Positions 1 to 48,803 of a DNA stretch of 56,384 bases are shown here, piece after piece. The notes beneath the pieces were generated by a model. It saw only the letters and a list, made by a program, of their open reading frames with translations, was not told the origin of the DNA and did not search any database. The stretch's first letter is position 1; the number at the start of each line of letters is the position of its first letter. Both the position numbers and the translations under genes were made by a program. The stretch is from an uncultured Muribaculaceae bacterium (GTDB taxonomy: Bacteria > Bacteroidota > Bacteroidia > Bacteroidales > Muribaculaceae): contig CANQQE010000019.1 in NCBI GenBank assembly GCA_947625935.1, positions 1-56,384 on the forward strand, read 5' to 3'.

Positions 1-204
1 CTTCTTATTTATTCTGCACTTTTTTGTTTGGAGTATGATGTTCGCCCCGCTTCTTTAAAGGGTTGTGAAGCTCGTATCTATCAGAATGATGATGTACGAA
101 TTGAGTCATTTGATGCTACTGATATTGTTCCGGTGATGGACAAGATCGTTTGGTTTGACAACCTTATTACAGAATTCAAGGAGGGCGAACATAATGGGTA
201 CTGA
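1..204 (+). CDS. C-terminal end of a probable PD-(D/E)XK (RecB/Cas4-like) nuclease, partial
   Basis: Frame 1 is open from the window edge to a TGA at 202-204 and encodes about 67 residues. The text (ALFCLEYDV, SLKGCEARIYQNDDV, PVMDKIVWFDNLI) resembles the C-terminal tail of phage RecB/Cas4-like nucleases that act in replication or recombination, but the catalytic region lies outside the window, so the call rests on tail resemblance only. It overlaps the next gene by 11 bases, which suggests translational coupling. It fits the replication genes at the far end of the window, as if the map were circular. Confidence 0.4.
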   Translation, partial: LLIYSALFCLEYDVRPASLKGCEARIYQNDDVRIESFDATDIVPVMDKIVWFDNLITEFKEGEHNGY

Positions 205-3200
205 CAATTATATTTATCATTCTGGTGTGGGGCATGACGGGAATCCTCCTGGTCGTGGATCCGGTCGATATGCTTGGGGATCTGGCGAGAATCCTAATCA
301 GCATAATCATGATCTTCTTACAGAAGTAAAAAAGTTGCGAGATCAGGGATTTACTCAGTCTGAGATTGCTAGAGCTTTGCTTGGCCAGAAAGGTGTCAAC
401 AAGCAGACCGGTGAGCCGATTTGGTGTAATTCGACGGATCTTCGTGCTGCGATATCAATAGCAAACACCGATCAGAGAAAGGCTCTTCGTGCTCAGGCTT
501 TGAAACTTTACGATGAATGCCATGGTAATGTTTCCGAGGTCGCTCGTCGTATGGGAAAGAATGAGAGTTCCGTTCGTTCTTTACTTAAAGATTCTATTAA
601 TAAGCGTCAGGGTCGTTATGAGAAGACTGCTGAATTTCTTAAGCAGAAAATAGATGAGCAAGGTGTTATTGATATTTCATCTGGTGTTGAGTCTATCATG
701 GGTCTTCCTGCTCATGTAAAAGACGTGGCCGTTGCGATGCTCGTGCAAGAGGGTTACGTCAAAACTTGGGTTCAATTAGACCAGCAGTTTGGTCAGGGTA
801 ACAAGACCACTATGAAGGTTCTTGCTCGTAAACCGCAAGAAGGCGAAACGGATAAGGACGTTCGTAGTTGGGTTCAGCATCATAAATATGAAGTTGGCTC
901 AATAGTAGAGTTTACCCCAGACGAAAGTAAAACATTTTGGACACCCGAATTTCCAGCTATGCTTGACCCCAAACGAGTAAAAATCCGTTATGCTGAAGAT
1001 GGTGGAAAAGATAAAGACGGTGTTATAGAACTTCGTCGAGGAGTAGAAGATATTTCTCTTGACGGGTCTCAATATGCTCAGGTTCGAATTGGTGTTAATG
1101 GAACTCATTATCTAAAAGGCATGGCCATGTATGGTGAAGATTCCGATTTTCCAAAAGGAATCGATGTTATATTTAATACTAATAAGCATGCTGGAACACC
1201 TATGCTTGGTGAGGGCGATAACACTGTATTGAAGCATCTGAAGACAAATGATAAAGGAGAAGTTGACCGAGATAATCCGTTTGGCGCATTAATTAAAAGT
1301 CCAAAAGAAGTAGATGGTATTCTTATGGCTGGCGGCCAGCGTCATTATATTGATAAGGATGGAAAAGAAAAGCTTTCCCCAATTAATAAGCTTCGTGATG
1401 AAGGAGACTGGGATTCTTGGTCTCGGACACTTTCTTCTCAGTTTCTGTCTAAGCAGCCTTTGAAGTTGATACATCAGCAGATTGATATTTCTGTTAAGGA
1501 TAAGAAAGCAGAGCTAGACGAGATTATGTCTTTGACGAATCCCGTTATCAAGAAGAAGATGCTTGAAGATTTTGCAGAACAAACTGACTCCTCGGCTGCT
1601 AGGTTGAGCACCAAGGGTTTTAAAGGACAGGCATTTCAGGTTTTGTTGCCGCTTCCTGATATTTCAGTAAATGAGATTTACGCGCCGATGTATAAAGACG
1701 GTGATACGGTTGCTTTAATACGATATCCTCATGGCGGAACATTTGAGATACCGGTTCTTACCGTTAATAACAAATCAGAGTCTGGTAAAAATAGAATAAC
1801 AAGCAACGCCAAAGATGCGGTCGGTATAAATCCAAAGACAGCAGCCCAATTGTCCGGAGCTGATTTTGATGGTGACACTGCAGCTGTCATACCATTAAAG
1901 TCAAATAATCTTTCGGTTGCTCATAAGAAATATTTTGATGAGCTCGCAATGTTCGATCCTAAAGAATTATATTCTTTGCCTGAGGGAACGCCGAAGATTA
2001 AAGATCGTACCAAACAGAAATTGATGGGTGAAGTAACGAATTTAATAACGGATATGACTGTTGGTGGTGCTACTGCGCCAGAGATTGTTCGAGCAGTTAA
2101 ACATTCAATGGTTGTCATCGATGCACAGAAGCACAATCTTGATTATAAGCAAAGCGCCATCGATAATAATATTGCTGACCTGAAACGAAAGTATCAGGGA
2201 ACCAATTCGAAAGGACAGCCTGGCGGAGCCTCCACGATTCTTTCCCAAGCTCATGCTACTACTCGTGTTAATCAACGTAAAGAGCTTACTGATACAAAAA
2301 AGATGACCCCTGAGCAACTCGTTGCTTGGAATCGTGGTGAGATCGTCTATGTCGAGACTGGGAAGATGAAGCAAAAGATGGTCGCTGATCCGAGAACCAT
2401 GACGGATGAGGAGCGGGCTACTTTTAGATCCGGAAACAAAGTTTATCGGCGAGTAGAAGAGAATGGGAAGACAAAGCGTAAGCTTGTTGCTGATCCTACA
2501 GGGATGACCCAGGAGGAATGGGATCGTTTTAATGCTGGTAAGAAAGTATACCGGCAGTCAAATGAGAAGGTACAGGAGCAAGTTCATAGAATGGATGTCG
2601 TTGATGACGCTATGAAGCTCGTACATGATCCCAACAACCCTAAAGAGGTAGCCTATGCTAAATATGCAAACACCCTTAAAGATTTGGCAAACCAGGCTCG
2701 TAAAACTGCTCGTTCTATAAAGCCGACGCCTATAAATCAAGAAGCTCGGCGTACGTATGCGGAAGAGGTAGCCTCTCTTACAGAGAAGGTACGCCAGGCA
2801 AAAATGAACTCTCCTCGTGAGAGAAAAGCACAGGCCCTGGCTGGAGCAATGGTGGCAGAGAAGTTTGCAGCAGACCCCAGTATGGACTTCGAGCACCGTC
2901 AACGAGAAAGAGCCCGGTCTCTGATCGTTGCTAGGGCTGCCGTAGGGGCTAAAAAGGACCCTGTCATTATTACAGACAGGGAGTGGGAGGCTATTCAAGC
3001 AAACGCCGTTTCTACATCACTACTACAGCAGATTCTTAGTAATACAGATCAGGATGGGTTTAAACAGCGTGCTACACCTCATAATAAAAGCGCTCTTTCT
3101 CCTGCATTCCAGGATCTTGCTAGAAGTATGGCTTCTTCTGGGCACTACACAAATGCAGACATTGCTGAACGATGTGGTGTTTCTGCTTCCGCGATTGCAC

Positions 3201-3241
3201 AATTTCTTAATCAAGAAGGAATTGAAGTTGAAAGGAGTTGA
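194..3241 (+). CDS. RNA polymerase-like protein with beta-prime DPBB motif (ADFDGD) and HTH segments
   Basis: The protein has 1015 residues. I chose the ATG at 194 because AAGGAGGG (178-185) sits 8 nt upstream; an ATG at 155 has no such site. Residues 556-561 read ADFDGD, the metal-binding signature of the beta-prime double-psi beta-barrel. The flanks also match that family's layout: RYPHGG upstream, a GINPKT segment just before and AAVIPL just after, like R.PTLHR, L.P and AVH.PL in cellular enzymes. A separate block with KGMAMYGED and FPKGIDVIFNTNK could be the lysine-bearing partner barrel, but this is unproven. Helix-turn-helix segments occur near residues 40-65, 105-130 and 985-1015. The N-terminus carries a GRGSGRYAWGSGENP tag. 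Known single-chain relatives are YonO of SPbeta and crAss-like phage polymerases. An RNA polymerase role is inference; a DNA-binding structural protein with a DPBB fold is the alternative. Confidence 0.6.
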   Translation: MGTDNYIYHSGVGHDGNPPGRGSGRYAWGSGENPNQHNHDLLTEVKKLRDQGFTQSEIARALLGQKGVNKQTGEPIWCNSTDLRAAISIANTDQRKALRAQALKLYDECHGNVSEVARRMGKNESSVRSLLKDSINKRQGRYEKTAEFLKQKIDEQGVIDISSGVESIMGLPAHVKDVAVAMLVQEGYVKTWVQLDQQFGQGNKTTMKVLARKPQEGETDKDVRSWVQHHKYEVGSIVEFTPDESKTFWTPEFPAMLDPKRVKIRYAEDGGKDKDGVIELRRGVEDISLDGSQYAQVRIGVNGTHYLKGMAMYGEDSDFPKGIDVIFNTNKHAGTPMLGEGDNTVLKHLKTNDKGEVDRDNPFGALIKSPKEVDGILMAGGQRHYIDKDGKEKLSPINKLRDEGDWDSWSRTLSSQFLSKQPLKLIHQQIDISVKDKKAELDEIMSLTNPVIKKKMLEDFAEQTDSSAARLSTKGFKGQAFQVLLPLPDISVNEIYAPMYKDGDTVALIRYPHGGTFEIPVLTVNNKSESGKNRITSNAKDAVGINPKTAAQLSGADFDGDTAAVIPLKSNNLSVAHKKYFDELAMFDPKELYSLPEGTPKIKDRTKQKLMGEVTNLITDMTVGGATAPEIVRAVKHSMVVIDAQKHNLDYKQSAIDNNIADLKRKYQGTNSKGQPGGASTILSQAHATTRVNQRKELTDTKKMTPEQLVAWNRGEIVYVETGKMKQKMVADPRTMTDEERATFRSGNKVYRRVEENGKTKRKLVADPTGMTQEEWDRFNAGKKVYRQSNEKVQEQVHRMDVVDDAMKLVHDPNNPKEVAYAKYANTLKDLANQARKTARSIKPTPINQEARRTYAEEVASLTEKVRQAKMNSPRERKAQALAGAMVAEKFAADPSMDFEHRQRERARSLIVARAAVGAKKDPVIITDREWEAIQANAVSTSLLQQILSNTDQDGFKQRATPHNKSALSPAFQDLARSMASSGHYTNADIAERCGVSASAIAQFLNQEGIEVERS

Positions 3242-3249
3242 GATTTGTT

Positions 3250-3495
3250 TTGGATGAAGATGTAATGCTTACAACATACGACAATTCGTTCAATCCTTTC
3301 GAGAACTTTAATGCTTGGTGGAAAGAAGATCTTCGTTTGGGTCATGATTGCTGTGGAACTCTTGCAAGAATGGTAAGTACGAGTATGCTAGCGACTGATA
3401 GTACGAACGATTCTGAAATTCTTGATGCGATTAACGAAATAGTTGATGCAGAGCCTCTGATTTATAGAAAAGTTACGAAAAATGACTTTAAATAG
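3250..3495 (+). CDS. Small conserved phage protein of unknown function
   Basis: About 81 residues, acidic, with FNPFENFNAWWKEDLRLG near the start and a C-terminal YRKV. The AAAGGAG at 3231-3237 directly abuts a TTG at 3238, which is too close to use, so I prefer the in-frame TTG at 3250; an ATG at 3265 is another option. The gene follows the polymerase-like gene without a gap and is the last one before the hairpin-rich intergenic region. Proteins of this look often sit near terminase genes in Bacillota phages, but I know no function. Confidence 0.6.
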   Translation: MDEDVMLTTYDNSFNPFENFNAWWKEDLRLGHDCCGTLARMVSTSMLATDSTNDSEILDAINEIVDAEPLIYRKVTKNDFK

Positions 3496-3546
3496 TGTGT
3501 TTTTCTAGCTTTCAAGGGGCACAGGGGATATAAAATATAATTTTAT

Positions 3547-3583
3547 AGGGGGAGGGGGTCTATTATATTTGCCCCCACCCCCT
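3547..3583 (+). terminator. Very G/C-rich hairpin, probable terminator
   Basis: AGGGGG-A-GGGGG (3547-3558) pairs with CCCCC-A-CCCCCT (3572-3583) around a central A/A mismatch. The 13-nt loop contains the ATTATATTT element. It lies 50 nt after the last gene of the first block. No clean U-tract follows, so a structural or packaging role is possible. Confidence 0.5.
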
Positions 3584-3636
3584 GCATCGCCGCCCTCTTC
3601 AAAAATTCCCCAGGGGTAAAATTTGGTTTTTGCTTT

Positions 3637-5246: not shown

Positions 5247-6992
5247 ATGCTTTCAAACACAGTAACACCAAAATATTATGGACAATTTCGTGACGCCGTG
5301 TTGCGCGGCGAGTTCCCGATTTGTGAGACGATCAGTCTCGAAATGAACCGAATTGATAAGTTGATTGAGGACCCTCGATTTTATTATGACGACAAAGCTG
5401 TCGAAGGTTGGATTGCATTTTGTGAAAATGAGCTCACGCTTACCGATGGCGGAGACCTTTATCTTCTTGATACGTTCAAACTTTGGGCGGAAGAAGTTTA
5501 TGGCTGGTATTACTTCATTGAACGAAGTGTTTTTGAGCCAGGTAAACACGGCCAGCCCGGCCATTATGTGAAGCGTGTGATCAAAAAGCGTCTTACGCAA
5601 AAGCAGTATTTGATCGTTGCTCGAGGTTCGGCGAAAACTGTTTACGGTATGGCACATCAAGCATATGGACTGGTGATGGACACTTCTACGACACACCAGG
5701 TTACGACCGCCCCGACGATGAAGCAGGCGGAAGAAATGCTCTCCCCGTTTAGAACAGCGATTACCCGAGCTCGAGGTCCGTTGTTTAAGTTTTTGACAGA
5801 CGGTTCCATTTACAGTACGAAGGGCGATCGATTTAATCGTCAGAAACTCGTCTCTACGAAAAAGGGAATTGAGAATTTTATGACAGGTTCTCTCCTTGAG
5901 GTTCGTCCTATGAATATTGCTAAGCTTCAAGGCTTGCAGAATAAATATTCGACTGTGGATGAGTGGCTTTCCGGAGATATTCGAGAAGATCCAATTGGAG
6001 CACTTGAACAGGGAGCATCCAAACTCGATAATTATTTGATCATAGCGATGAGTTCTGAGGGTACTGTTCGTGCCGGTGCCGGCGATACGATTAAGATGGA
6101 ACTTATGGACATCTTAAAGGGCGACTACTACAACCCGCATGTTTCCATCTGGTGGTATAAGCTCGATGATGTTAAAGAAGTATCCAATCCTGAAATGTGG
6201 GTTAAGGCCGCACCAAATCTCGGAAAGACCGTGACTTATGAGACTTATCAACAGGATGTTGAACGTGCAGAAAATGCGCCGGCTGCTAGAAACGACATTC
6301 TTGCTAAGCGTTTTGGCATCCCCATGGAAGGCTATACGTATTATTTTACGTATGAGGAAACGCTTCCGTTTGAGCGAAAGCAATCTTATCAAGGAATGGC
6401 ATGCGCTCTTGGAGCAGACTTGTCGCAAGGCGATGATTTCTGCGCATTTACTTTTTTGTTTCCTCTTCGTCGTGGAGAATTCGGAATCAAGACCCGATCT
6501 TACATTACTTCTCGAACATTTGAGCGTCTTCCAGTTGCCATGCATATGAAGTATGAGGATTTCATCAAAGAGGGAAGCCTTATTGTTATGGACGGAACGG
6601 TTCTTGACATGCATTCCGTTTATGAAGATCTCGAAGGCATGATTGAAGAATTCGATTACGATGTTCGTTGCCTTGGATACGACCCGTATAATGCTACCGA
6701 ATTTCTGCAGGATTGGATTATGCGAAATGGTGAGTATGGTGTCGAGAAAGTGATTCAGGGGTTCAAGACGGAATCCGTTCCCCTTGGCGAACTGAAGAAG
6801 CTTTCTGAGGATCAGCTTCTGATTTTTGACGAGTTGCTTATGTCATTTGCAATGGGAAACTGTGTCGTTCTTGAGGATACAAATGGAAATCGGAAGCTTT
6901 ATAAGAAGCGCCACGAGGAGAAGATCGATAATGTGGCAGCTCTTGTGGACGCTTACGTTGCATATAAGCGAATGAAAGAAGACTTTGATTGA
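5247..6992 (+). CDS. terL: Terminase large subunit
   Basis: 581 residues. The ATPase motor shows a variant Walker A (ARGSAKT, residues 125-131) and a Walker B-type acidic pair (VDEW, D238-E239). The C-terminal nuclease shows the three expected acidic sites: LGADLSQGDD, GYDPYNATEFLQDW and DNVAALVDAYVAYK. It packages genomic DNA into the prohead and cuts it. The Walker A lacks the usual second glycine, as in several Bacillota phage terminases. The start at 5247 follows a GTGGGG-like weak site. Confidence 0.93.
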   Translation: MLSNTVTPKYYGQFRDAVLRGEFPICETISLEMNRIDKLIEDPRFYYDDKAVEGWIAFCENELTLTDGGDLYLLDTFKLWAEEVYGWYYFIERSVFEPGKHGQPGHYVKRVIKKRLTQKQYLIVARGSAKTVYGMAHQAYGLVMDTSTTHQVTTAPTMKQAEEMLSPFRTAITRARGPLFKFLTDGSIYSTKGDRFNRQKLVSTKKGIENFMTGSLLEVRPMNIAKLQGLQNKYSTVDEWLSGDIREDPIGALEQGASKLDNYLIIAMSSEGTVRAGAGDTIKMELMDILKGDYYNPHVSIWWYKLDDVKEVSNPEMWVKAAPNLGKTVTYETYQQDVERAENAPAARNDILAKRFGIPMEGYTYYFTYEETLPFERKQSYQGMACALGADLSQGDDFCAFTFLFPLRRGEFGIKTRSYITSRTFERLPVAMHMKYEDFIKEGSLIVMDGTVLDMHSVYEDLEGMIEEFDYDVRCLGYDPYNATEFLQDWIMRNGEYGVEKVIQGFKTESVPLGELKKLSEDQLLIFDELLMSFAMGNCVVLEDTNGNRKLYKKRHEEKIDNVAALVDAYVAYKRMKEDFD

Positions 6993-7011
6993 GGAGGGTG
7001 AAGGTTTCAAA

Positions 7012-7416
7012 ATGGACAATAAATTCTTAGAACTCTCCGAAGTTCTAGCCTCTTTGGACCCCGAGTACCTCGAGCATCATGGTATTAAAGGTCAAAAGTG
7101 GGGCGTAAGACGTTATCAGAATGAAGATGGATCTCTTACTTCTGCTGGGAAGAAACGTGCTTCTAGTCGTGTTAGCAAAATGAGTGATGCTGAGCTTCAG
7201 AGTCGGACGAATCGCCTCCGGCTTGAGAATCAGTATCGAGATCAAAAGGCGTACGCGAACAAAGGTCGTCGTTTTTTGAATCAAGCATCTAAGGATTTAA
7301 AAACTACATTAGCTATAAGTGCTACAATTACTAGTCTAAGCATCCTCGGAAAAAAGGCCTTAGATAATTATCCCTGGATTCTTGACACAATTTTAGATGT
7401 TACAAAAAAACATTGA
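7012..7416 (+). CDS. HHGIKGQKWG-tagged putative virion protein
   Basis: 134 residues from the ATG at 7012, with GAGGAGGG further upstream. After about 20 residues comes the motif HHGIKGQKWGVRRYQNEDGS, then a basic helical segment and a short hydrophobic stretch (TTLAISATITSLSIL). This motif is common near the N-terminus of head-region proteins in Bacillota phages; its function is not known to me. The next gene carries the same motif, and the polymerase-like protein has a related tag. Confidence 0.65.
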   Translation: MDNKFLELSEVLASLDPEYLEHHGIKGQKWGVRRYQNEDGSLTSAGKKRASSRVSKMSDAELQSRTNRLRLENQYRDQKAYANKGRRFLNQASKDLKTTLAISATITSLSILGKKALDNYPWILDTILDVTKKH

Positions 7417-7434
7417 ATGAGAGGGGGTTATTTT

Positions 7435-7921
7435 TTGGATTACCCTCTATATTATCTTGCCCATCATGGAATTAAGGGTCAGAAATGGGGCATTCGAAGG
7501 TATCAAAACGAAGATGGATCTCTTACTCCCGCGGGACAGCGACGTCTCGAGAAGAAAGACGCAAAATGGGCAAAAAAGAATTATGAAAAAGGCATATAAG
7601 ATTACGTATAAGCAAGTTCGAAAGTCAATGCAGAAAGCAGATAAGGATATACGTAGTCAAATGCCTGTGAGAAATGCAGACGGCTCTTTTTCTCGGACAT
7701 ATATGAATGCGTTTAATCGTCAGCTTGCGGATCTTATGAACCAAGCTCCTAGTTCTCTTCGTTCCCCCTCTGGTCGAGTTGTTCGATGGGTGGCTAAGCG
7801 AGGCGAAATTGGCGTTCAAATGGCGCTTGCCAGTTCAGATTACGACATGTCTCAGGTCAGAAGTGGCGTTTGGGCTGGCGGTCGCGTCGGGTACAGTAGA
7901 CGACAAATTAAATCTATATGA
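7435..7921 (+). CDS. Second HHGIKGQKWG protein, split by a +1 frame change
   Basis: The first frame starts at TTG 7435 (GAGAGGGGG upstream) and ends at 7599 after HHGIKGQKWGIRRY and KKNYEKGI. The +1 frame continues, without a ribosome binding site of its own, as AYKITYKQVRKSM to RSPSGRVVRWVAKRGEIGVQMALA and stops at 7921. Joined after NYEK, the two give one protein of about 160 residues that matches the layout I remember for this head-region family. The join falls on GAA-AAA-GGC at 7585-7593, where a lysine tRNA could slip from AAA to AAG. Programmed +1 shifting, a real frameshift mutation or a sequence error are all possible. Confidence 0.6.
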
Positions 7922-10062: not shown

Positions 10063-12033
10063 TTGGCAGGTAAGAATGGAACGCCCGATTTTGGCGGTTG
10101 GGCCACTCGAAATAATCTTGAGTGCAGTGATGGCCGAGTCATTTGTCGGGACGCATTCGCTGTTCAGGATGGCGCTCGGGTTCCTCTGGTTTGGAATCAT
10201 GAGCATAATGATCCGTCTAGCGTTCTTGGCCATGCGATTCTGCATAACCGGGACGAAGGTGTTTGGGCGGATTGCTATTTTAATGACGGCGAAAAGGCCG
10301 ACGCGGCTAAGCGTGCGGTTCAGCATGGTGATGTTGATTCTATGAGCATTTGGGCGAATAAGCTTAAGCAGGACGGCCGGCGTGTTCTTCACGGAATGAT
10401 TCGTGAGGTGAGCCTCGTTCTCGCCGGAGCGAATCCTGGTGCTCTGATCGAGTCTGTTGCTGCGCACGGCTATGCGCTCCTCGACGATGAGGACGAGGGC
10501 ATTATCTACACCGGCGAGAATTTCGAGCTCTATCACGCTGATGACAAAGCCCAGGAGAAAGCTTCTGAGAAGTCTTCAGATGAGAAGAAGGAAGAACCCG
10601 CCGCAAAGAAAGATGAAGCTGACGATGAAGACGGGGACGAGACGGTTCAGGATGTCTTGGACACTCTAAATCCGAAGCAGAAGAGGGTCGTGAATGCTGT
10701 CATCGGCATGGCCCTTGAGAGTGCCGCTGCTGGCGGCACCGAGACCGGTGACGAAGATAATACTGATAATGAGGAGGAAGAGAAAATGTCTCATAATGCG
10801 TTTGAGACCAACAATGGCGCTGCTCAGGAGGGTGCCGGTGATGTCGTTCTGTCCCATTCTGATGTGACCGACATCATGAAGAGCGCTAAGACCTATGGTT
10901 CCCTGAGGGAGAGTTGGAATCGTTTCGTTGCCGATCGGGACGAGCCCATTCTGATGTATGGCGGCGTGCCCGTGGTGTATGATGACAATGACATGCTGAT
11001 CCATGCCGGACTTCCCGATGTTCCTACTACTGACATGATTCTGCCCCAGGATGAGACTGCCAACTATAAAGAGTATGGCAAGTATGGCTTTAAGAACCCC
11101 AGTATGTTCTACCCCGAGGCTCGGGGCCTGACCAGTGGTCCTCCCGAGTTCATCGGCCGGGACACCGCTTGGGTTCAGGAAGTCATGGGCCGCGTGCATC
11201 ATACGCCTTTTAGCCGTGTGAAGAGCATGTACGCGAACATTACCGAGGACGATGCCCGGGCCAAGGGTTACGCGAAGAAGGGCACGCAGAAGATGTATGA
11301 GGTCTTTAGCACCCTGAAGCGTGTTACCAATCCCACCACGATTTATAAGCTGCAGAAGCTGGATCGGGACGACATCATTGATATCACCGATTTCGATGTT
11401 GTGGCTTGGCTGCGCGGCGAGATGCGGGTCATGCTGAATGAGGAGATCGCCCGTGCGATTCTGCTTGGTGATGGCCGTAAGCCTGGTACCGAGGGCAAGA
11501 TCTCCGAGGACTGCATCCGCCCCATTGTGTCCGATGTCGATCTGTTTAACGTGAAGGTTAATCTGGAGTTTGAGCCGGGCACGACCGCGGACAAGAAGGC
11601 AGAGAAGGTTATCGATGGTATTATTCGTGCCCATAAGAAGTATCATGGCTCCGGAAACCCGACCCTGTTCACTACCGAGGATTGGCTGACCGAGATGCTT
11701 CTGCTCAAGGATAATATTGGCCATCGTCTGTATAAGACCGAGGCCGAGCTGGCGACTGCTCTGCGTGTTTCCAAGATTGTAACCGTTGAGGTTATGGAGG
11801 CGGAAGAGTACAAGAGTAAGTTTGGCGCTGATAAGAAGCAGGAGCTCATTGGTGTCATTGTTAACCTGGCCGACTATAACATTGGTCAGGATCCCAAGGG
11901 CGGCATCTCCATGTTCGATGACTTCGACATCGACTTCAACCAGCAGAAGTACCTGATCGAGACCCGTATGAGTGGCGCTCTGATCAAGCCGTTCTCCGCG
12001 ATTACGATCACTGCTAAAGAGTCGGGGGAATAA
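10063..12033 (+). CDS. Prohead protease fused to HK97-type major capsid protein
   Basis: 656 residues from TTG 10063, preceded by GGGAGGG. Residues 1-135 form an HK97-type prohead protease: WNHEHND (His46 or His48), VDSMSIWA (Ser93 or Ser95) and REVSLVLAGANPGA. Residues 150-235 are a charged linker resembling the delta scaffold domain. From about 242 the protein is the major capsid protein. A GAGGAGG site precedes an in-frame ATG at 10786 (Met242), so free capsid protein could also be made by internal initiation. Codon choice in the capsid part is strongly biased (CTG, AAG, GCC), as expected for the most abundant protein. Confidence 0.9.
   Translation: MAGKNGTPDFGGWATRNNLECSDGRVICRDAFAVQDGARVPLVWNHEHNDPSSVLGHAILHNRDEGVWADCYFNDGEKADAAKRAVQHGDVDSMSIWANKLKQDGRRVLHGMIREVSLVLAGANPGALIESVAAHGYALLDDEDEGIIYTGENFELYHADDKAQEKASEKSSDEKKEEPAAKKDEADDEDGDETVQDVLDTLNPKQKRVVNAVIGMALESAAAGGTETGDEDNTDNEEEEKMSHNAFETNNGAAQEGAGDVVLSHSDVTDIMKSAKTYGSLRESWNRFVADRDEPILMYGGVPVVYDDNDMLIHAGLPDVPTTDMILPQDETANYKEYGKYGFKNPSMFYPEARGLTSGPPEFIGRDTAWVQEVMGRVHHTPFSRVKSMYANITEDDARAKGYAKKGTQKMYEVFSTLKRVTNPTTIYKLQKLDRDDIIDITDFDVVAWLRGEMRVMLNEEIARAILLGDGRKPGTEGKISEDCIRPIVSDVDLFNVKVNLEFEPGTTADKKAEKVIDGIIRAHKKYHGSGNPTLFTTEDWLTEMLLLKDNIGHRLYKTEAELATALRVSKIVTVEVMEAEEYKSKFGADKKQELIGVIVNLADYNIGQDPKGGISMFDDFDIDFNQQKYLIETRMSGALIKPFSAITITAKESGE
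10786..12033 (+). CDS. Major capsid protein from internal start
   Basis: This is the capsid part of the fusion, 415 residues, if translation starts at the internal ATG behind GAGGAGGAAG at 10771-10780. Such nested capsid starts are known in phages that fuse protease and capsid. It would supply many more capsid copies than protease. The sequence has the typical E-loop and P-domain order but I cannot align it here. Confidence 0.5.
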   Translation: MSHNAFETNNGAAQEGAGDVVLSHSDVTDIMKSAKTYGSLRESWNRFVADRDEPILMYGGVPVVYDDNDMLIHAGLPDVPTTDMILPQDETANYKEYGKYGFKNPSMFYPEARGLTSGPPEFIGRDTAWVQEVMGRVHHTPFSRVKSMYANITEDDARAKGYAKKGTQKMYEVFSTLKRVTNPTTIYKLQKLDRDDIIDITDFDVVAWLRGEMRVMLNEEIARAILLGDGRKPGTEGKISEDCIRPIVSDVDLFNVKVNLEFEPGTTADKKAEKVIDGIIRAHKKYHGSGNPTLFTTEDWLTEMLLLKDNIGHRLYKTEAELATALRVSKIVTVEVMEAEEYKSKFGADKKQELIGVIVNLADYNIGQDPKGGISMFDDFDIDFNQQKYLIETRMSGALIKPFSAITITAKESGE

Positions 12034-33204: not shown

Positions 33205-33229
33205 TCGCGTAGAAAACATATACTATAAT
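33205..33229 (+). promoter_or_regulatory. Promoter, TCGCGT-N13-TATAAT
   Basis: TCGCGT at 33205-33210 and a perfect TATAAT at 33224-33229, exactly 13 nt apart. It belongs to a family of at least ten such sites in this region. It drives the stretch that follows, which has no gene for about 200 nt. Confidence 0.75.
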
Positions 33230-33235
33230 AAAAGG

Positions 33236-34458: not shown

Positions 34459-34483
34459 TCGCTTAAAAAACCAGCACTATAAT
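34459..34483 (+). promoter_or_regulatory. Promoter, TCGCTT-N13-TATAAT
   Basis: TCGCTT 34459-34464 and TATAAT 34478-34483, 13 nt apart. It lies 43 nt before the gene at 34526. The spacer ends CCAGCAC, as in the promoter at 42398. Confidence 0.7.
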
Positions 34484-34525
34484 AGGAACTACCTGAACCA
34501 ATTTATATTTGAAAGGAGAAGGAAT

Positions 34526-34999: not shown

Positions 35000-35146
35000 A
35001 TGATAACGCTGCTCTTATTTATTCTTATTGACCTGTTGGTCTTCGCTCTCATTATTAAAATTTCTACTGGGATTCTCTCTTTTCTTTTTCATTGTTTGCC
35101 AGTTCTGTGCATTATTTTCTTGGTTTATCTTGTGTTCTTCGCATAA
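35000..35146 (+). CDS. Small two-helix membrane protein
   Basis: 48 residues from ATG 35000; an ATG at 34991 overlaps the AAAGGA site. Two hydrophobic segments (LLLFILIDLLVFALII and LFHCLPVLCIIFLVYLVFF) fill the protein. Its TAA stop overlaps the next promoter. Function unknown. Confidence 0.6.
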   Translation: MITLLLFILIDLLVFALIIKISTGILSFLFHCLPVLCIIFLVYLVFFA

Positions 35147-35163
35147 AAATCCTTTCATATAGT
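35139..35163 (+). promoter_or_regulatory. Promoter, TCGCAT-N13-TATAGT
   Basis: TCGCAT 35139-35144 and TATAGT 35158-35163, 13 nt apart. The first box overlaps the stop codon of the membrane protein gene. ATTATATT follows at 35167-35174. Confidence 0.65.
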
Positions 35164-35194
35164 GGAATTATATTCTACTAAAAGGAGAAAAGAC

Positions 35195-35620: not shown

Positions 35621-35637
35621 TCGTGGCTCTTTCTTTT
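35605..35637 (+). terminator. Terminator wrapped around a stop codon
   Basis: AAAGAAAGAGCC (35605-35616) pairs with GGCTCTTTCTTT (35625-35636). The TGA stop (35618-35620) lies in the loop, and the T-run abuts the next TCGCAT box at 35637. Confidence 0.85.
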
Positions 35638-35661
35638 CGCATGATATTCTTAATCTATAAT
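35637..35661 (+). promoter_or_regulatory. Promoter, TCGCAT-N13-TATAAT
   Basis: TCGCAT 35637-35642 and TATAAT 35656-35661, 13 nt apart, followed directly by AGGAGGTGAG. Terminator and promoter are fused without spacer. Confidence 0.75.
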
Positions 35662-35675
35662 AGGAGGTGAGAAAA

Positions 35676-40641: not shown

Positions 40642-40852
40642 AACGAGAATGTTCTGTCCTACAACCTAATTTTATAACGCTAGCACTCTTTTTAGAAAGG
40701 AAAAACCTCTCCTCTGCTTTACAATCCTATCTTTTACGGGCATTCTCGTGTTAAAAACATTCTCTTTAATAGAAGGGGCCCGGTGTTTAGTAAATTCACT
40801 ATTGGTAGTCAGTCCGCGAAAGATAGTATGCTAACACCGTGGCCTTCTTCTA
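40642..40852 (+). ncRNA. Structured non-coding region (250 bp gap)
   Basis: AACGAGAATG (40642-40651) pairs with CATTCTCGT (40741-40749). A second, long stem joins 40770-40790 with 40831-40852 (about 18 pairs around TAGAAG, GGCC/GGCC and CGGTGTT), ending at ATTATATTT. No gene lies in 40636-40885. This could be a regulatory leader, a processed RNA or a terminator-like barrier; no known family is recognised. Confidence 0.5.
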
Positions 40853-42397: not shown

Positions 42398-42422
42398 TCG
42401 CGCAAATTTCCAGCACTATAAT
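42398..42422 (+). promoter_or_regulatory. Promoter, TCGCGC-N13-TATAAT
   Basis: TCGCGC 42398-42403 and TATAAT 42417-42422, 13 nt apart, directly after the stop of the gene at 42199. ATTATATTT follows at 42445. Confidence 0.75.
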
Positions 42423-42444
42423 GAAACCTAGTTTCAAATAAACT

Positions 42445-46505: not shown

Positions 46506-47010
46506 AACTCAGTTTAAACGTATGAAAGCGCTCGCTGAAGATAGAGAAAAACAAACTTTTCTCGAACGATTTGAGCAATTTCATAAAGACAAAATTAAAG
46601 CCGCTAAAATGGAAAGGAGGATAACGAAGATGAAGAAACGCACAATCGTTCGTTCTCCTGAAAAATACACTTGGTGGTACTATCTGTATGATAAATACGA
46701 GTCCATCGATAAGCTCATTCATCTTCGTAATATTATATTCTCCATTGCCAGAGATCGTAGATGCGTATCCTTGAATCGAGCGCTTGAGGTGCTCTGTTTA
46801 GAGCCATCTCGAGAGGGCCAAACACTCGGTTGGGATTATTGGGAGGACCTTCAAGATGATTTGCTTGACGATGAAACCAGGCTTTTCACGTGGGAATTCT
46901 ATAAGGACGGTACCATGAAGATAACATTCCGAAATCTACATGATATTTCAGGATGTTTTAAAACGGAGGATGAGATCAAAGAAGCTTCGCGCCAGAAACA
47001 GTCGCTATAA
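46498..47010 (+). CDS. GW-module protein, copy 1
   Basis: 170 residues from ATG 46498 (overlap with the previous stop, GGGGAG upstream), or 126 residues from ATG 46630, which has a perfect AAAGGAGG. The module reads CVSLNRALEVLCLEPSREGQTLGWDYW, then FTWEFYKDGTMKITFRNLHDISGCF. It matches the C-termini of the two DUF6353-like proteins but lacks their membrane part. The next promoter lies in its last codons. Function unknown. Confidence 0.65.
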   Translation: MTETQFKRMKALAEDREKQTFLERFEQFHKDKIKAAKMERRITKMKKRTIVRSPEKYTWWYYLYDKYESIDKLIHLRNIIFSIARDRRCVSLNRALEVLCLEPSREGQTLGWDYWEDLQDDLLDDETRLFTWEFYKDGTMKITFRNLHDISGCFKTEDEIKEASRQKQSL

Positions 47011-47011
47011 T
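46987..47011 (+). promoter_or_regulatory. Promoter, TCGCGC-N13-TATAAT, inside the end of a gene
   Basis: TCGCGC 46987-46992 and TATAAT 47006-47011, 13 nt apart. The TATAAT overlaps the TAA stop of the upstream gene. AAAGGAGG follows at once. Confidence 0.75.
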
Positions 47012-47029
47012 GAAAGGAGGGTGACGAAT

Positions 47030-48375: not shown

Positions 48376-48400
48376 TCGCGTGAGGATCATCTCCTATAAT
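48376..48400 (+). promoter_or_regulatory. Promoter, TCGCGT-N13-TATAAT
   Basis: TCGCGT 48376-48381 and TATAAT 48395-48400, 13 nt apart, followed by AAGGAGG. The preceding GAGGG/CCCTC hairpin (48351-48376 area) may act as terminator. Confidence 0.75.
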
Positions 48401-48416
48401 AAGGAGGTGCATTGTA

Positions 48417-48760: not shown

Positions 48761-48785
48761 TCGCGCAAGAATCATCTCCTTTAAT
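48761..48785 (+). promoter_or_regulatory. Promoter, TCGCGC-N13-TTTAAT
   Basis: TCGCGC 48761-48766 and TTTAAT 48780-48785, 13 nt apart, directly before AAGGAGGTG. The spacer shares GAATCATCTCC with the promoter at 48376, as if the promoter was duplicated with the gene. Confidence 0.65.
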
Positions 48786-48803
48786 GAAGGAGGTGTCCTT
48801 TAA

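Follow-up and report, generated by a model that had tools for sequence, protein, structure and literature searches.

Known systems and the phrog_4291 family

Single-chain RNA polymerases (RNAPs) with two barrels are known among phages from a few worked-out cases, with which we compare here the product of a gene at positions 194 to 3241 of a 56,384-nucleotide (nt) stretch of DNA from an uncultured Muribaculaceae bacterium (GenBank assembly GCA_947625935.1, contig CANQQE010000019.1, positions 1 to 56,384 of the forward strand; hereafter the window). The best structural matches of its predicted model, full-length as well as reduced to the core, are QDE-1 and the eukaryotic RNA interference (RNAi) polymerases (RDR), likewise single chains with two barrels, from which the phage protein is set apart by an N-terminal tag and by helix-turn-helix (HTH) matches at either end. 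The fold matches also include phage single-chain two-barrel RNAPs, namely the virion RNAP gp96 of Thermus phage P23-45 and the non-virion RNAPs gp64 of P23-45 and gp62 of P74-26. Gp96 is fused to the tape measure protein and is devoid of the clamp, whereas the family of the window protein, phrog_4291, is encoded by a separate gene at the genome end, carries HTHs and occurs in phages of Gram-positive bacteria. According to the available part of PMC10770324, P23-45 also has promoter motifs of its own, and gp66 of crAss-like phages is a two-barrel enzyme; the 2180-aa gp66 of phi14:2 is annotated as RNA polymerase from tandem mass spectrometry (MS/MS) proteomics in its record. YonO of phage SPbeta shares with phrog_4291 the DxDGD and RxPH motifs and, after the Asp triad, GxxSN...ID..K.

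The virion RNAP of phage N4 has a T7-like palm fold and is not a two-barrel enzyme. It is a packaged polymerase for early genes, as described in the available text of PMC4496689. The virion RNAPs of phiKZ and AR9 use phage-specific AT-rich early promoters (AAATATATATTAT-6N-G in AR9; PMC5312081, available part); unlike the single-chain phrog_4291 protein they are multi-subunit, and their promoter sequence is different. Literature searches found neither a characterisation of the phrog_4291 enzyme nor the TCGC-ACA-TATAAT motif described below in print, and the available part of the paper on cluster EL, which holds phages Count and Camille, mentions no promoter motif or polymerase (PMC7302621).

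The open reading frame (ORF) extends from 155 to 3241 on the plus strand. The limits given in the initial annotation, 194 to the stop at 3241 (1015 aa), are right, because the ATG at 194 is preceded by a Shine-Dalgarno sequence, AAGGAGGGCGAACATAATG.

194..3241, plus strand: predicted single-chain two-barrel RNA polymerase, 1015 aa, phrog_4291 (profile match, alignment, model)

The PHROGs profile search identified phrog_4291 with E=3.2e-289 over residues 34–1020 of the 1028-aa frame, and the gene finding is therefore not due to chance. PHROGs labels the family 'RNA-dependent RNA polymerase' and one phage record has 'putative RNA polymerase'; the polymerase label is not new, and the family is large and little-studied. 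By tblastn it is present in 250 of 50,697 phage records, always at <60% identity, 204 of these being phages of Arthrobacter, Gordonia or Streptomyces and others phages of Lactococcus and Rhodococcus and gut phages. Among the tblastn rows listed, the homologs are usually annotated as HTH or hypothetical proteins; if the prediction is true, it provides a function for many such annotations in the 250 records. Profile scans found at least 519 stretches with the family in viral contigs and 140 in a collection of 84,980 genomes, of which the best 80 come largely from gut metagenome-assembled genomes, mostly Firmicutes by title. The family is scattered and belongs to tailed phages of Gram-positive bacteria. 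The window's own assembly contains three polymerase copies, one on each of the contigs C19 (the window), C21 and C13, which therefore probably represent three different phages.

Predicted fold and catalytic elements

A sequence search of the PDB with the window protein alone gave no match, and a search with the profile of alignment A1 (15 proteins, assembled without a G[AS]DFDGD filter) gave mainly HTH and designed-repeat matches, with AR9 beta-prime at E 1.6. Eleven of the 15 A1 proteins matched the Pfam family PF05183 (RNA-dependent RNA polymerase, RdRP) at E<=1, the best of them at 6e-4, with no match listed for the window protein. The fold was assessed from AlphaFold2 models. The full-length model, built from alignment A2 (126 homologs, its rows chosen with the G[AS]DFDGD filter), has a predicted local distance difference test score (pLDDT) of 88.3 and a predicted template modelling score (pTM) of 0.82, with residues 1–15, 18–38 and 244–248 below 50. 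A Foldseek comparison with the PDB returned nine matches at E<=1e-3, all nine of them single-chain two-barrel polymerases, with QDE-1 as the best (1.5e-8). The full-length template modelling (TM) scores are low (0.19–0.38) and the root-mean-square deviations large, as expected if the domains are differently placed, and the core (residues 252–722) was therefore modelled alone (pLDDT 88.8, pTM 0.81). All 26 of its PDB matches at E<=1e-3 are QDE-1, plant RDR2, P74 gp62, phage gp64 or P23-45 gp96 (best E=3.2e-10, best TM 0.53), followed in the list by AR9 and cellular beta-prime subunits. The structural alignments of the core with QDE-1 and RDR have 10–15% sequence identity, and in a viral structure library the top match is the model of a phage 'RNA dependent RNA polymerase'. 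The predicted models thus match enzymes with paired double-psi barrels as a whole, rather than as traced strand by strand, and place both barrels in one chain, unlike in the cellular multi-subunit RNAP. The predicted catalytic elements are:

1073..1186, plus strand: lysine block, first (beta-like) barrel, residues 294–331 with K308 and K331 (A1/A2 alignments, model)
1721..1876, plus strand: second (beta-prime-like) barrel, R510-x-P512 to D557-F-D-G-D561 (alignments, models)
2003..2134, plus strand: bridge-helix candidate, residues 604–647, MGEVTNLITDMT...HSMVVIDAQKH (alignments, model, YonO comparison)

Neither A1 nor A2 shows any variation at K308, K331, K347, K420, R510, P512, the GADFDGD block (555–561), N616, D620, S638, D643, K646 or H647. 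DFDGD is present in 15/15 sequences of A1; in A2 the 126/126 follows from the filter by which its rows were picked, and the sole locus of 178 that this filter missed, L106, carries GADYDGD. In the model, K308 and K331 (15/15 in A1, 126/126 in A2) are located on first-barrel strands or next to them, where they may be catalytic, which agrees with the earlier proposal that a lysine-bearing block upstream of ADFDGD could form the other barrel. The resemblance of the ADFDGD context to cellular beta-prime, also claimed in the initial annotation, stood in part: R.P before (RYP, 510–512) and AVIPL after (564–568) are present, and the 'L.P just before' is absent (the residues there are GINPKTAAQLSGADFDGD). 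After the Asp triad lies MGxVSNLITDMT...IDAxKH, with a conserved GxxSN...D..K helix, and in the model (not superposed) the long conserved helices 604–623 and 628–647 are located where the bridge helix would be expected; the segment 604–647 may be akin to the bridge-helix motifs of eukaryotic RdRPs. The alignment of 18 YonO sequences exhibits IGxISNNIT...IDYAKT at nearly the same spacing from the Asp triad.

The low full-length TM-scores and the profile comparisons weigh against the polymerase assignment: hhalign gave a weak match to P23-45 gp64 (prob 7%, E 0.005), no significant one to the YonO alignment (prob 2%) or to YonO alone (0.7%), and no profile similarity to phi14:2 gp66 (prob 0.5%). 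In these comparisons R.PH, the Asp triad and GxxSN line up at matching positions without reaching significance; the protein therefore probably works like the YonO, gp64 and gp66 enzymes and, by sequence, stands outside the YonO family. SPbeta has no phrog_4291 match. The predicted fold, the Asp triad, the lysines and the helix all agree, and the protein is very probably a two-barrel single-chain RNAP, as the initial annotation had supposed. Neither outcome named there as refuting this reading was observed at the level of prediction: the model matches two-barrel polymerases, and the family has the two lysines and a bridge-helix-like candidate. It might instead be a catalytically dead relative serving as a structural or DNA-binding head protein, which would suit the annotation of homologs as structural or HTH proteins; given that the checkable catalytic-site residues are invariant across divergent members, this is very improbable.

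An insert made up of three tandem MTxEExxxxxxGxxVY-like units occupies residues about 700–800 (2291–2593) of the window protein; in the 14 other A1 proteins the region mostly consists of gaps or a single unit.

Terminal domains and packaging in the virion

Outside the polymerase core, three features could be delineated:

218..286, plus strand: N-terminal tag, residues 9–31, HSGVGH..GRGSGRYAWGSG, predicted disordered (alignments, model)
488..604, plus strand: N-terminal HTH, residues 99–137, resembling sigma-70 region 4 among other profiles (Pfam/NCBIfam)
3146..3211, plus strand: C-terminal HTH, residues 985–1006 (HTH profiles)

Pfam and NCBIfam results for the protein comprise mainly HTH families, and the profile matches at residues 94–137 and 985–1006 (1015-aa numbering) agree with the HTH segments noticed earlier at both ends. 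For the N-terminal HTH, sigma-70 region 4 (PF08281) was identified in 14 of the 15 A1 members (best 2.5e-9), a generic HTH model in 15/15, and the NCBIfam sigma-70 model in 12/15, the window protein scoring 18 bits, under the cut-off of 43. The likeness to sigma-70 region 4 may alternatively reflect generic HTH similarity.

Packaging is suggested by the homolog from Lactococcus phage 1706: orf75 is a 'structural protein' in the depositors' record EU081845 (RefSeq changed the name), and a note in the record of ReqiPepy6 repeats this statement. Because of this label, the polymerase is probably packaged in the virus particle, a conclusion we regard as reasonably likely; to its disadvantage, the label is a record annotation. 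The gene closes the replication operon, with the cohesive-end (cos) site and the late operon right behind it, and this location also fits a polymerase that is not packaged but synthesised in the infected cell to serve middle or late genes, which would read the TCGC motif or another signal in the manner of YonO, the enzyme that transcribes the SPbeta late genes (PMC5467207, available part). The orf75 label argues against such a role, as does the occurrence of the motif before non-structural and not structural genes where examined, and we consider it rather unlikely.

The N-terminal tag has the conserved form LxH[YH]G...SGRYPWGSG and falls in the low-confidence part of the model. A DUF7211-like motif, LxHHGxxGxKWGxRR, occurs in 137 ORFs of the loci analysed. 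As judged by eye, most of these ORFs follow the polymerase gene within a few kb, in the region that holds terminase and portal genes in annotated relatives; one of them is 1706 orf7, a 'structural protein' in RefSeq, in which the motif is internal and not N-terminal. Alignment of the two tags by hhalign over 12 columns around DxLxH[YH]G gave prob 84%, E 7.5e-6 and score 24.4, the best of 60 column-shuffled controls reaching 13.4; the match in the H-x-G columns is built in, because both sets were picked by H-x-G-anchored patterns, whereas the D-x-L and [YH] columns were not built in by the selection. The DUF7211-type tag is perhaps a shared virion-directing tag, and either it or the polymerase tag could direct packaging. 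In the window, the adjacent ORFs at 6985–7416 and 7417–7596 bear the DUF7211 tag (HHGIKGQKWGVRRYQNEDGSLT), and relatives have several such ORFs, with six in L082. The SGRYPxGSG / SGRYPWGNG tag also occurs in non-polymerase ORFs (L106:19936-20568 and L089:1-288).

A promoter-like motif in phages of the family

Comparison of upstream regions yielded the motif TCGC[AG]-N6-ACA-N5-TATA[AG]T, in which TCGC begins 19 nt ahead of the hexamer; the instance in Count is TCGCAAGTTTTACACCCCCTATAATGACAC. It was scored on 14 positions, and counts are given as polymerase strand/other strand. By motif score, the window contains:

33205..33230, plus strand: promoter-like motif, 14/14 scored positions
34459..34484, plus strand: promoter-like motif, 12/14
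35139..35164, plus strand: promoter-like motif, 12/14
35637..35662, plus strand: promoter-like motif, 12/14
40746..40771, plus strand: promoter-like motif, 12/14
42398..42423, plus strand: promoter-like motif, 12/14
46987..47012, plus strand: promoter-like motif, 14/14
48376..48401, plus strand: promoter-like motif, 13/14
48761..48786, plus strand: promoter-like motif, 12/14

Two further sites complete the 11 that score >=12 on this strand and look doubtful (33377 and 53689). Sites scoring >=13 number 3/0 in the window, 13/0 in C21, 12/0 in Count (62 of 79 kb), 3/0 in 1706 and 1/0 in C13, with 0–0.1 in shuffles; none (0/0) was found in 100 kb of contigs presumed to be of the bacterial host (C1–C5) or in parts of SPbeta, P23-45 and phi14:2. 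At >=12 the counts are 11/2 in the window (shuffles 0.8), 17/1 in C21, 13/0 in Count, 10/1 in 1706 and 1/2 in the presumed host, and motifs with spacings shifted by up to 3 gave 0–4 sites. The 178 family loci (L001–L178) contain 87 sites >=13 on the polymerase strand and 1 on the other, distributed over 66 loci, as compared to 0/0 in 78 YonO-phage loci. The exact sequence TCGCAN6ACAN4CTATAATGA occurs in at least 120 stretches of viral contigs, while lengthening the first gap by one base leaves 1 stretch and scrambling TCGCA leaves 7. Among the 80 loci listed there are 384 sites >=13, and 66 of the 67 loci with at least two are one-stranded. Of the eight family phages examined, the motif is clear in four, weaker in the fifth and not found in three that were partly seen. 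The earlier guess of promoters unlike the host's has thus received a candidate promoter class, which the enzyme may recognise.

The at least 120 exact-motif stretches are located in 118 records, 63 of which contain a strong phrog_4291 match (E<=1e-80; 28/50, 17/29 and 18/39 in three batches), while in seven further records the matches are weak or incomplete, some of them truncated where the contig stops. Among motif records of >=40 kb, 44/47 encode the polymerase (22/24, 11/11 and 11/12; the misses are G041, G048 and G098). The shifted-spacing contig and 14/15 YonO contigs have no phrog_4291 match; the remaining YonO contig matches at E 5e-4 in an N-terminal stretch. The association of the motif with this phage group is strong, and the polymerase, rather than another shared protein, is somewhat more likely than not the reader of the motif.

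Several observations count against this assignment. No site >=12 was found in FP_oengus (43 of 58 kb), Psst2 (27 of 56 kb) or P162 (18 of 56 kb); C13 is weak, with 6 sites on the plus and 1 on the minus strand at >=12 and 1.0 in shuffles; 112 of the 178 family loci, many of them short, have no site >=13; and 55 of the 118 motif records, mostly short fragments with three of >=40 kb, have no strong polymerase match. Furthermore, co-occurrence does not single out the polymerase, because these phages share other genes too.

Sites >=12 extend over 33.2–53.7 kb in the window, 24.0–35.7 kb in 1706, 29.7–44.6 kb in C21 and 31.3–74.8 kb in Count (whose first 17 kb were outside the scan). All of them are outside the structural module, according to annotation in Count and 1706 and to position in the window and C21 (TerL of C21 at ~6.5 kb); by position, the motif-led non-structural genes are early/middle. 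The hexamer is followed by two purines in every one of 111 distinct sites, although these two positions were not scored, and 83 of these sites are followed within 70 nt by a Shine-Dalgarno-like run and a start codon. The run starts 0–4 nt past the hexamer in 32/83 and 0–7 nt in 37/83; the pattern is loose, and the purines near the hexamer may partly belong to the run. This proximity fits poorly with a sigma70 start, which, ~7 nt downstream, would often cut the run. To judge from the sequence, were transcription to begin with the purines, the leader would be short and usable.

TATAAT is also the consensus of the sigma70 -10 hexamer. For this reason the sites might be served by the host RNAP together with a phage activator, which again tells against the polymerase as reader: the host enzyme and a phage DNA-binding protein would read the motif, and the two-barrel enzyme would prime replication or carry out RNA-templated synthesis. 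The VRR-Nuc and exonuclease genes beside the polymerase gene in 8/8 records and the RNA-templated enzymes (QDE-1, RDR2) among the nearest solved folds are consistent with this division of labour. An excess of sigma70-like sites in 1706 at 22–47 kb (15 on plus, 6 on minus, shuffles 4–9) also counts against the joint explanation set out below. In the window, strict sigma70 promoters are not enriched (3 on plus, 6 on minus, shuffles 3–6), nor are relaxed ones at 28–48 kb (40 vs 34.3 +/- 5.4). TCGC starts 19 nt before TATAAT, where TTGACA-N17 would give 23; phages infecting Microbacterium, Lactococcus and gut hosts all keep the TCGC block unchanged; and a sigma70 start would lose or cut the Shine-Dalgarno-like run in the 37/83 sites. 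We consider it unlikely that the host enzyme reads the motif. Separately, the TCTTGAAA/TATAAT 8-mers of Count, obtained with gene calls from a simple in-house caller, were ruled out as sigma70 promoters, strict pairs not being enriched (1 on plus, 17–66 kb); the TCGC-ACA-TATAAT pattern emerged instead.

In the mechanism proposed here, the phage would load the polymerase into the particle and the enzyme would enter the next host with the DNA, then to transcribe the non-structural genes from TCGCR-N6-ACA-N5-TATAAT-RR. The TCGC block would be recognised by the fused HTHs, chiefly the N-terminal one, RNA synthesis would begin with the purines directly after TATAAT, as the closeness of the Shine-Dalgarno sequence suggests, and the late structural genes, motif-free where examined, would be transcribed in some other way. 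Since the parts support each other, we lean slightly towards the joint explanation, an active packaged polymerase reading its own promoter class. That it amounts to self-contained viral transcription in widespread phages of Actinobacteria and Firmicutes, with a packaged polypeptide uniting the two-barrel polymerase and the sigma-region-4-like domain, dedicated promoters, and neither a sigma factor nor the host polymerase for early genes, is a more tentative proposal, less likely than not. If true, a packaged polymerase would be common in ordinary siphoviruses, possibly with a promoter-reading domain of its own, and a promoter candidate would be in hand for relatives of the RNAi polymerases. 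As the family includes isolated phages of Microbacterium, Arthrobacter, Gordonia and Lactococcus, all ordinary hosts in the laboratory, the enzyme, the virion and the promoters are directly testable.

A second sequence element

The first promoter lead was another element, TTATATTT, which is strong in the window and was set aside as not family-wide; at some sites the Shine-Dalgarno sequence comes 0–1 nt after it. With gene calls from a simple in-house caller, it occurs <=60 nt upstream of 17/56 genes outside the late module vs 0/23 inside:

28246, 30726, 31575, 32039, 33839, 34504, 37018, 39851, 40854: TTATATTT sites in the window
42447, 42834, 43715, 47381, 47988, 49106, 49905, 54294: TTATATTT sites in the window, continued

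Eleven of the 17 sites begin 20–25 nt from the start codon, and TATATTT occurs in the window 43 times on the plus vs 3 times on the minus strand. The element is enriched also in C13 and L020 and not in others; it is possibly a second promoter class or an element of the 5' untranslated region. Hairpins ahead of it were considered as N4-like promoters and dropped, as hairpin-less sites carry the same motif.

Genomic neighborhood

The gene order VRR-Nuc, exonuclease, polymerase, small ORF, genome end is found in 8/8 phage records; 5 of these have HNH ahead of this series, and a helicase can be seen in 4. The surroundings in the window are:

1..204, plus strand: 3' part of the preceding gene, which runs into the start of the polymerase gene (relatives have an exonuclease here, Cas4-type or other; assigned by position only)
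3250..3495, plus strand: small ORF after the polymerase gene, as in phage relatives (gene order)
3545..3592, no strand assigned: probable cos region, GGGGGAGGGGG ... CCCCCACCCCC TGCAT CGCCG (the L099 contig ends at TGCAT; ReqiPepy6 has its 3' cos overhang at the same place in the gene order)

The G-run/C-run inverted repeat at 3545–3592, followed by TGCATCGCCG, is conserved in L099 and L100 and probably marks cos. The record of ReqiPepy6 marks a 9-base cos overhang, and 3' 9-base extensions are reported for Count and Camille (PMC7302621, available part). The genome in the window was opened elsewhere: the close relative L099 (91%) links the right-end helicase to the polymerase via ~1 kb. TerL is encoded at 5247–6992. 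A single protein at 10063–12033 has both Peptidase_S78 and Phage_capsid matches, and the union of protease and capsid in one protein is also described for Count and Camille in the available part of PMC7302621.

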